The notes under the pieces: generated by a model
Seen by the model: the letters and a program-made list of their open reading frames with translations, nothing else
What the model was told of the DNA's origin: nothing
The model's database searches: none
Position numbers and translations under genes: made by a program
In this document: in pieces, positions 44,217 through 47,256 of the stretch
Layout: each line of letters starts with the position of its first letter
Numbering within the stretch: position 1 is the stretch's first letter
Origin: Aeropyrum camini SY1 = JCM 12091
GTDB taxonomy: Archaea > Thermoproteota > Thermoprotei_A > Sulfolobales > Acidilobaceae
Assembly: GCF_000591035.1 (NCBI RefSeq)
Contig: NC_022521.1
Coordinates: 124,001-188,000, forward strand
DNA: 64,000 nt
Direction: 5' to 3'

Positions 44217-45608
44217 CTACCCTTGAACCCCATTGGTGCTCCGGGCCTTTTTAAGGTATTCATTGAAAGGGGGTATCCTGACAGTGTACAGCCTGCCGCC
44301 GGGCATCCTCACCATAGCCTCGCCGACGCCCAGGACCCCCAGCTTCCCCCACCCCTCTAGGCCGAGCTTCCCGGCTGATTCGAGATAACCCTGAGCCTTT
44401 CCGCCGAAGGCTGCTACAACCCCCGCGTTATGTTCGATAGCCTCAGGCAGGTCGCCAGGAGACTGGGTTGCAAACACGCCGTAGAGACCCCTGCTCCTCC
44501 CCTCCCGGGCTATTCCCTCAAAAACTCCTTTGGATGGGGAGAGGCGCCAGGCCTCATCTACTACAAGGACTATTCTACCCCTACCCCCCGTGGAGAGGGA
44601 GTACTCGACGAGGGAGGAGGCTACAGCCTGGGCAGCCCGGCTCCTCTCACTTGTCTCCAAAAGCCCGAGGTTGTAGATTGTTAGGGGGGAGAGCGGAGGT
44701 ATGGTAGCCCCGGGCACGGGGAGCTGTTGGGCGTCCCTGGGCTCCAGATAGACAGCTGCAAGAGGCTCGAGTAGGGAAGCGAGGTCTCCCTTAGGGTCCA
44801 CCACAACCACACCCACAGGATCGCCCCTAGCCTCGGAGAGGAGGGCCAACTGGGCGGCAAGCCCGGCCAGGAGAACGGTCTTCCCCCTACCTGTAGGCCC
44901 CACCACCAGCATGTGCGACTCTATATCCCTAGGCCATCGCAGAGATACTGCTCCTCCATTCTCCACAGAGATACCCAGAAGAATCTCGCCTCCGAGAGGC
45001 AGCCTGCCTTCGGGCTTGAACCGAGGGTTTAGATGCCGTGGTTCAGCCTCCAGCAGTGACGCCGGGGTCCAGGCCCCGTTAACAACGTCGAATTTAACCC
45101 CGACCTCAGCCTCGATCATAGACTTAAACAGCCTAACCTTGTCTTCGCCCGCGCCCTCCTCAAGCCAGACTATCGCTCCAAGCCTGCCCAGCCTCGGTGT
45201 TCCTGCGGAGACAGCCTCCCTATAGAGCGACTCCAGTAGTGCCAGAGAGGCCTTGTATCTGCCTAAACGGGTTGTTGAGTATTTGAACTCAACCTTCTTA
45301 ATCTCGTCTTCGATAGCCTCCACAACCCTGGACTTCTCCACCGGTATGTAGCTGTAGAATATCGAGATGGGGACGGGTGTGCGCATGGCCAGTGAGAAGA
45401 GCCTATCCCCCAAGCCTTCAACGCTCCCAGGGTTATCCCTTGCCACAAGCACTACAGGTTTTCTAGGGGCCTCCTCCCCCTCGACCTTGAGAAGCACGCC
45501 AGCCCTTCTTGAGAGGAGAGCCGCCTTGCTGGAGAGGGTTTTCCTATATAGTATGCCCGCCGCCGCCACCATGAGAATAATCGTGAGTAGATCAAGGACG
45601 CCTGGCAT
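44217..45608 (-). CDS. cedB: Ced DNA import ATPase CedB (HerA/VirB4-like)
   Basis: A 463-residue ATPase. A membrane segment lies at residues ~5-22, then comes an accessory domain, then the core with Walker A VVGPTGRGKTVLLAGL (~233), VGVVVVDPKGDLASLLEP, and Walker B IVLVVDEAWRLSPSKGVF (~355), and a GVFATQSPGDLPEAI sensor region. This is the layout of CedB, the motor that powers inward DNA transfer in the crenarchaeal exchange system. It follows cedA with a 23-base gap and GGAGG ten bases before the ATG. HerA-like repair motors are the alternative, but the neighbours favour Ced. Confidence 0.8.
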   Translation of the reverse strand: MPGVLDLLTIILMVAAAGILYRKTLSSKAALLSRRAGVLLKVEGEEAPRKPVVLVARDNPGSVEGLGDRLFSLAMRTPVPISIFYSYIPVEKSRVVEAIEDEIKKVEFKYSTTRLGRYKASLALLESLYREAVSAGTPRLGRLGAIVWLEEGAGEDKVRLFKSMIEAEVGVKFDVVNGAWTPASLLEAEPRHLNPRFKPEGRLPLGGEILLGISVENGGAVSLRWPRDIESHMLVVGPTGRGKTVLLAGLAAQLALLSEARGDPVGVVVVDPKGDLASLLEPLAAVYLEPRDAQQLPVPGATIPPLSPLTIYNLGLLETSERSRAAQAVASSLVEYSLSTGGRGRIVLVVDEAWRLSPSKGVFEGIAREGRSRGLYGVFATQSPGDLPEAIEHNAGVVAAFGGKAQGYLESAGKLGLEGWGKLGVLGVGEAMVRMPGGRLYTVRIPPFNEYLKKARSTNGVQG

Positions 45609-45631: not shown

Positions 45632-46987
45632 CTACAATATCTTCAGCCTAAGCCTAGCACCTCCTCCCAGCAGCCTAGCCACGCCTGCTGTGGCTACTAG
45701 TAGTATCGAGAGGTACATACCAGGGAGTGTTATATAGTAGACTATGATCATCTTCAAAACATCCATAGTAATATAGTCTAGCAGGCTGACCAGGGTCTCG
45801 GAATAGTCCCTAGCCGCCTTGTCCAGGCTAACACTCACGTTGCAACCGCTCCCCTCTACCTCGACTACTATGCTACCATTTCTACCCGGCTCTACATCCA
45901 CGTACCCGCCCGTCAACCCCTCCCACCTCCAAACACCCTTGCCCCCAGCCTTCCCCTCACCAACTCTATACTCCGGCTCACAGCCCTCCAGCCAGGCTAT
46001 CTCCACGTAGTCACTTGGCCCGAGGCCTTCCCAGCGGGCCTCAAAGCCGCTCTCCCCCCTGCTCACCCCCGCCGGGGGTTCGCTGCCGTAGACCATGACA
46101 CCATCCCCTATCATAAACGCTATGTGCGGCACTCTCAGCTCCAGGCTGCCCTCGACTCTTGACATATCCACCAGAGGCGGGTCAGGCCTAAAGGAAACTC
46201 CCATGTATTCAAAAGTGAAGGAGACCTCGCTCAAGGGGGTCTGGATCCTAGGGATTTTTACAAGGGAGCTGTAGGCCACTCCGCCCTCGATTATGTAGCT
46301 AGCCACCTCCTCTCCTCCACTGTAAACCCTAAGCAGGCCAGCCTCCACAACCCCGCTGCTACTTGTTAGGGTCGCCTTGCCTGTCCACACGCCCTCAACA
46401 TCCCCGGATGTAGGGGCGTCGCCGAGGGTTTCTACGAAGAGCGGGAGGGCGGGTAGCGCAGCGTTAAACACTATAACAAAGGCTATTAGCCATGCCCCGG
46501 CTGGCTTAGCCAGCCTGAAGGGTATAGCGTAGAGGAGGACGCCAACGCCTAGGAGGATCTCGCTGTATCCAAGCAGGTACTTGACCCCAAGCACCGTGGC
46601 GACGAGAAGTGTTATACCCCACGAAAGCTCGTCCATAACCGACGCTGCAGCCGAGGCTACGGGTTTTAGAGCCTCCAGAGGGTCCGGGAGGCTCGTCACT
46701 ATGCTGGAGAGGGCTTTTAGGAAGGCGGCGAAGACAGCGGCGTCGAGGAGCCAGGCGTCGAGCTGCGGCCAAGAGCCCCCTATTAGTAGTTGAATGTAGC
46801 TGGAGACGGCTAAGAGAGCCGCAGCAGTGAGGGCTAAGAGAGCCGCCGTGAGGGAGTCTTCAATCAGAACCGACGCCCACCTCTTGATAGAGGCGACTGG
46901 TAATGGTGCGGCGTAAAGTAGGGTTCCCAGGTAGAATCCCAGCATGGCTAGCTTGAACGCGAGGAGCTGGAACTCCCCGGCCTCCAC
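45632..46987 (-). CDS. cedA: Ced DNA import membrane channel CedA
   Basis: A ~451-residue membrane protein. About six helices occupy the first ~220 residues, then a ~190-residue extracellular-looking domain (starts VEGVWTGKATLTSSSGVVEA) and a last helix near 415-440. This fits CedA, the polytopic channel of the crenarchaeal DNA importer. The start is GTG 46987, five bases after the CedA1 stop and eight bases after GGGGGT; the frame itself opens at 47197. Residues 35-45 (KRWASVLIEDS) and the following AAL match CedA1, see findings. Confidence 0.78.
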   Translation of the reverse strand: MEAGEFQLLAFKLAMLGFYLGTLLYAAPLPVASIKRWASVLIEDSLTAALLALTAAALLAVSSYIQLLIGGSWPQLDAWLLDAAVFAAFLKALSSIVTSLPDPLEALKPVASAAASVMDELSWGITLLVATVLGVKYLLGYSEILLGVGVLLYAIPFRLAKPAGAWLIAFVIVFNAALPALPLFVETLGDAPTSGDVEGVWTGKATLTSSSGVVEAGLLRVYSGGEEVASYIIEGGVAYSSLVKIPRIQTPLSEVSFTFEYMGVSFRPDPPLVDMSRVEGSLELRVPHIAFMIGDGVMVYGSEPPAGVSRGESGFEARWEGLGPSDYVEIAWLEGCEPEYRVGEGKAGGKGVWRWEGLTGGYVDVEPGRNGSIVVEVEGSGCNVSVSLDKAARDYSETLVSLLDYITMDVLKMIIVYYITLPGMYLSILLVATAGVARLLGGGARLRLKIL

Positions 46988-46992
46988 AACTA

Positions 46993-47256
46993 CTAACCCC
47001 CGCCTATGAGGACCTCGCTTACTATCCCCGCGAGCTTTACTATGACGGCGAACACTGTAGTCCCAAGGGCCAGCCAGAGGGCAGCCCACATGGAGTCCTC
47101 GATAAGACTGTTCCCCACCCTCTTCACCTTCGAGGAGGGTATAGGGCTGCCTCTCAGTGTCCAGCCTATACTCCAGGATAGGAGGAAGAGGGCCCATGCC
47201 AAGGCTGTAAGCTTGCCCGTTAGATCCTCAACCATCTCCACTATGTCGGCCGCCAA
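46993..47256 (-). CDS. cedA1: Ced pilin-like membrane protein CedA1
   Basis: An ~87-residue protein with two hydrophobic helices (~18-34 and ~57-75) joined by a short basic loop RGSPIPSSKVKR, the hairpin layout of VirB2/CedA1 conjugative-type pilins. GGGG about six bases before TTG 47256 gives this start. The frame opens at 47421 with a proline-rich N-terminus that overlaps prpB, and it cannot be excluded that part of this is a cleaved leader. It is followed five bases later by cedA. The identification rests on layout and neighbours plus recall of the Aeropyrum Ced pilus. Confidence 0.75.
   Translation of the reverse strand: MAADIVEMVEDLTGKLTALAWALFLLSWSIGWTLRGSPIPSSKVKRVGNSLIEDSMWAALWLALGTTVFAVIVKLAGIVSEVLIGGG

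Follow-up and report, generated by a model that had tools for sequence, protein, structure and literature searches.

A two-helix hairpin common to the CedA1 pilin and the N terminus of the CedA channel of Aeropyrum camini, with a putative role in seating the pilus

Ced, Ted, and bacterial type IV secretion

The closest described system is Ced of Aeropyrum pernix and Sulfolobus (CedA, CedA1, CedB), which has the same genes as the locus studied here and whose pilus has been solved by cryo-EM (PDB 8dfu) (PMC9905601). Pilus assembly with lipid has been shown for the A. pernix CedA1, and in the same work (Discussion and Supplementary Fig. 2c) Beltran et al. 2023 described the N terminus of CedA as homologous to nearly the whole CedA1 pilin, with VirB2 and VirB6 of A. 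tumefaciens showing the same relation at lower significance (PMC9905601). The published link to VirB6 comes from HHpred searches starting from TedA and CedA. Bacterial type IV secretion systems (R388, A. tumefaciens) also combine a VirB2 pilin hairpin with VirB6, an inner-membrane protein; Ced, however, imports DNA, lacks an outer-membrane complex, and leaves CedA1 uncleaved. The Ted system of Thermoproteales (TedA, TedB, TedC) has the same three components as Ced, but TedC carries a cleaved signal peptide (PMC9905601). Searches of ~400 genomes of the phylum with the CedA profiles recovered neither TedA nor TedC. A CedA paralog restricted to one genus, CedE, is known from Saccharolobus (PMC11868833), and the second CedA copy that we found in a Sulfolobaceae genome (L187), which carries the hairpin (E 2e-22), is probably CedE.

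The initial annotation of the locus had interpreted a likeness between CedA1 and the start of CedA as the sign of a homologous hairpin. The homology holds, but it is not new: it is a rediscovery of the relation published in 2023 (PMC9905601). What we add is a large-scale test on 78 pairs with negative controls, a map of the fixed residues, a test of gene conversion, and the recovery of the relation outside the Sulfolobales.

The ced locus of Aeropyrum camini

In the window (the whole 64,000-nucleotide stretch of DNA that was analyzed, positions 124001-188000 of a single contig), cedA1, cedA, and a cedB-like ATPase gene lie in tandem on the minus strand, almost without gaps (Table 1). CedA1 is 93% identical to A. 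pernix L138 and orthologous to the subunit of the solved A. pernix conjugation pilus 8dfu (phmmer E 4e-47; Foldseek E 2.4e-9 for the CedA1 model). Since the 8dfu chain opens with AADIV, which corresponds to residue 2 of our CedA1 reading, the TTG start of the gene is supported. CedA is orthologous to CedA of A. pernix and the Sulfolobales, also with cedA1 alongside. Orthologs of cedA are present in 178 of the 229 genomes of the class, and cedA1 adjoins cedA in nearly all genomes. In one genus (g39; L078, L079, L185:2873-4435, L186:3686-5224), cedA1 is located far from cedA in the genome and the hairpin is found in both proteins. Pfam offered no usable family for CedA1 or CedA.

Table 1. Features of the ced locus, with positions in the window
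Feature	Positions	Strand	Description or basis
cedA1	46993..47256	-	87 aa, TTG start, VirB2-type conjugative pilin
CedA1 residues 15-82, hairpin common to CedA	47011..47214	-	hhalign, 68 ungapped columns; predicted helices
cedA	45632..46987	-	VirB6-like membrane channel protein, 451 aa from GTG start
CedA residues 6-73 (P0002 numbering), N-terminal pilin-like hairpin	46772..46975	-	CedA 1-72 HMM; predicted helices
CedA residues 148-174, second helix-P-loop-helix hairpin, possible internal repeat (weak)	46469..46549	-	G-x6-P spacing
CedA residues 201-379, beta-rich domain, predicted extracellular	45854..46390	-	AlphaFold2 strands 200-378
cedB-like ATPase gene (HerA/VirB4 type)	44217..45608	-	Pfam DUF87 E 1.2e-6, HerA_C E 6.8e-6

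Directly downstream of cedA, well outside the Sulfolobaceae, about 20 loci code for CedA2-like two-helix proteins of ~50 aa (for example L070:1025-1201, L066:5539-5730, L074:5525-5800, L093:5551-5715, L087:5552-5779, and L100:2959-3138), in contrast to the description of CedA2 as not conserved between species. In the window, cedA and the ATPase gene are only 23 bases apart, too small a gap for such an ORF. CedA2 was ruled out as a further copy of the hairpin (hhalign probability 0.1-0.5).

Predicted architecture of CedA1 and CedA

The AlphaFold2 model of CedA (mean pLDDT 92.6; numbering equal to P0002 minus one) opens with two helices (3-26 and 32-69) joined by a loop at 27-31, followed by two more helices, a hairpin (142-154/161-188), a beta domain (200-378), and a last helix (408-441). 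CedA1 is predicted to be a two-helix hairpin with a short loop (helices 2-36 and 42-84, loop 37-41). Under the offset of the alignment described below, the predicted CedA loop occupies the same five positions as the CedA1 loop, and the topology of the helices agrees between the two predicted models. The order of helix, proline-containing loop, KR pair, and second helix that the initial annotation had read in both proteins is indeed present in CedA1 and in the CedA N terminus. By the positive-inside rule, the basic loops of CedA1 and CedA would be cytoplasmic and the beta domain would lie outside.

A fold search with the full CedA model recovered neither VirB6 nor the pilin, because the beta domain dominates the result, and no VirB6 match to CedA was obtained in PDB sequence searches either. 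This beta-rich domain, of ~180 residues, is located between the sixth and the last helix of CedA outside the Sulfolobaceae, where it could have a putative contact or adhesin role. The Sulfolobaceae CedA (~260 aa) is without it and shows a gap in the alignment.

One hairpin in the pilin and in the channel

The cedA1-cedA pairs of 78 genomes (77 relatives and the window) were compared as profiles. CedA1 15-82 aligned with CedA 6-73 over 68 gap-free columns, with an hhalign probability of 97.3 (E 1.7e-11) against the whole CedA profile and 98.1 (E 1.2e-13) against its N-terminal segment alone, and nothing in the rest of CedA matched CedA1; the significant match between the two families is confined to the N-terminal segment where the likeness had been noticed. 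Individual sequences gave the same picture: pairwise BLASTP of CedA1 against CedA reached E 5e-7, CedA was the sole other match to CedA1 genome-wide (E 3.3e-6), and the only significant match of CedA in the PDB was the A. pernix CedA1 pilus 8dfu (E 3e-4 with the single sequence, 8e-11 with the profile). An HMM of CedA 1-72 recovered all 81 CedA1 ORFs (median E 3.9e-14) and an HMM of CedA1 recovered 73 of the 79 CedA ORFs at E<1e-3, with no other ORF reaching E 1e-3 among 5,515 (some loci being represented more than once) taken from the window and ~80 fetched loci. With a membrane-composition background, the profile score was 42.6, versus 7.6 +/- 1.2 for shuffled columns and 9.2 for reversed ones. 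The likeness is far beyond chance, and these profile comparisons indicate that CedA1 and helices 1 and 2 of CedA go back to a single ancestral membrane hairpin of two helices.

Five positions are fixed in both families (CedA1/CedA, P0002 numbering): G31/G22, P38/P29, P40/P31, K or R45/K36, and D54/D45. Another nine (W21, F24, W28, W32, G36, G48, E53, G65, and F69) are fixed in CedA1 but not in CedA. The 16-residue stretches in which the similarity had originally been seen, KRVGNSLIEDSMWAAL (CedA1 45-60) and KRWASVLIEDSLTAAL (CedA 35-50; 36-51 in P0002), are identical in register at 10 of 16 positions (K, R, L, I, E, D, S, A, A, and L), but the separate S before LIEDS, also listed as a match, is out of register. 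The E of LIEDS is present in 78/78 CedA1 and in only 5/78 CedA; since it is fixed in the former and rare in the latter, the LIEDS run overstates, at the level of the genus, a similarity that is real and extends further. The proposal that LIGG marks a common end of the segment failed, as CedA1 83-86 and CedA 69-72 do not align (register +9) and the LIGG motifs are unconserved, with GG at the CedA1 LIGG position in only 4 of the 78 CedA1.

Recurrence outside the Sulfolobales

Searches with the channel profile led to three further genomes of the phylum (Candidatus Caldarchaeum, Candidatus Terraquivivens, and a third MAG) in which the gene for a CedA-like protein has a pilin-like gene as its adjacent upstream neighbor. 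Both products have the hairpin. Their channels matched CedA with an hhalign probability of 98.3 over 179 columns and their pilins matched CedA1 with 92.8; the value for pilin against its own channel N terminus was 64.5, from only three sequences each. In the PDB, the single match of the Caldarchaeum-type channel profile was again the CedA1 pilus 8dfu (E 5e-4). Judging from these matches, the relation between the pilin and the channel hairpin holds outside the Sulfolobales. A literature search found no publication covering both Caldarchaeum and CedA.

The genes are part of type IV secretion-like loci (L176:2083-10637, L177:780-11284, L175:8584-11049) that code for a pilin with a likely signal peptide, a CedA-like channel of 280-296 aa, and another CedA-like protein, which is large (in two of the loci, 1,187-1,372 aa) and begins with the hairpin as well. 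A VirB4/HerA-type ATPase is found in L176 and L177, and L177 additionally has a TrwB-like ATPase. Elsewhere, a lone 86-aa ORF (L188:6793-7050) resembles the beginning of the channel hairpin (E 8e-6), and no further Ced-like gene was recognized in its vicinity.

Docking or mere inheritance

We favor, with a probability of about 0.6, a hairpin of common ancestry through whose CedA copy CedA1 subunits are docked or recruited at the pilus base, docking being one of two options that the initial annotation had raised. The CedA hairpin would remain membrane-embedded and form the first pair of helices of a VirB6-like channel, and CedA1, which is the hairpin alone, would be extracted from the membrane with lipid and polymerize into the pilus. 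A CedA ring would thus offer pilin-like surfaces through which incoming CedA1 could be recruited and the pilus base seated by like-to-like hairpin packing, the lumens of channel and pilus being continuous for incoming DNA. Recruitment of CedA1 by the CedA ring seems likely because both hairpins share fold, loop, and orientation.

A docking or templating role is also the most likely one by analogy with bacterial VirB6. In R388, VirB6 is a pentamer modeled as the base of the pilus, the top 50 VirB6 positions co-evolving with VirB2 are all in helix alpha1, VirB2 recruitment has been mapped to this helix, and alpha1 mutants reduce conjugation (PMC9259494). The counterpart of VirB6 alpha1 in the CedA hairpin would be its first helix. 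We found no structure of a Ced channel together with its pilus.

It is also conceivable, although we consider it less likely, that the hairpin was merely inherited and that in CedA it serves the channel fold (and perhaps a shared membrane-insertion route) without touching CedA1 in a pilin-like way. The fixed G, P, P, K/R, and D would then be required for a tight hairpin whose basic loop is cytoplasmic, and it fits this explanation that the five common fixed residues are of the turn-forming or basic-loop kind, that the residues fixed only in the pilin are not fixed in CedA, and that Beltran et al. suggested a common export pathway (PMC9905601). Co-variation between CedA1 and CedA, which had low power (~68 effective sequences), points in the same direction, as the CedA hairpin makes up 36% of the columns but only 30% of the top 50 pairs and is not enriched, and it was dropped as support for docking. 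Against inheritance alone stands the equivalent helix of the R388 VirB6, which is the mapped site of VirB2 recruitment and in which mutants lose conjugation (PMC9259494).

A more elaborate version of docking starts from CedA 148-174, which several searches matched in one and the same register to the first CedA hairpin, with G-x6-P, a basic residue, G, and LI in common. The shuffle p value of ~0.007-0.02 against that hairpin (0.12-0.19 with the pilin alone) refers to a segment picked by eye, and we do not claim an internal repeat within CedA from this weak lead. If it were one, the channel might be made of pilin-hairpin copies (CedA 6-73 and ~148-174), with the pilin as the third and only free one, and the hairpins at the N termini of a ring of CedA subunits might nucleate the CedA1 pilus as its initial pilin layer, a scenario that we find quite doubtful.

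Descent of the hairpin

A recent duplication or gene conversion between neighbors could keep the two hairpins alike in each genome, and the adjacency of cedA1 and cedA would favor it. The hairpins of a genome's own pair are, however, 26.6% identical versus 25.8% for cross-species pairs (p 0.046, much of it relatedness). Because own pairs hardly exceed cross pairs, the likeness is old and not upheld by conversion, which is unsupported as its source within the Sulfolobales; nor is there a visible sign that the two hairpins are tightly co-adapted. The hairpin is also kept where the genes are unlinked (L185, L186). In a mostly poorly resolved tree of 50 hairpins (71 columns), the pilins fall into two groups, those of the Sulfolobales being placed with the channels of that order and those of the Caldarchaeales type with one of the channels of their own lineage, as conversion would predict; yet the AU test does not reject one clade of all pilins (p-AU 0.19), and the pilin-pilin profile match across the two lineages (E 4e-7) is stronger than the pilin-channel match within the Caldarchaeales (E 6e-5). 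Altogether, gene conversion appears very improbable. As for the direction of descent, Beltran et al. lean toward a pilin younger than the channel (PMC9905601), the opposite of the fusion of a pilin hairpin to a channel that the initial annotation had proposed; with so few columns, the tree and its AU test favor neither fusion nor the release of a pilin from a channel.

Convergence of unrelated membrane hairpins through a helix-PxP-KR-helix composition has a negligible probability, for although short hydrophobic segments with a high content of L, A, I, and G, such as these, can have inflated scores, the two align over 68 columns without a gap, the shuffled-column and reversed controls reach 7-16 at most against 42.6, and ~5,300 other ORFs and the other CedA helices all stay below that score.

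Implications for Ced and related systems

Since the relation recurs in Caldarchaeum-type archaea, it would either predate the Ced system of the Sulfolobales or have arisen more than once. For the bacterial systems, if VirB2 and VirB6 alpha1 are homologous, their co-evolution signals may partly mirror contacts inside the shared fold rather than contact between the two proteins. If the pilus subunit and the first hairpin of the channel are one module, pilus assembly could be viewed as an extension of the channel by free copies of one of its parts, which would explain both the fit between channel and pilus and the lipid kept by the pilin.
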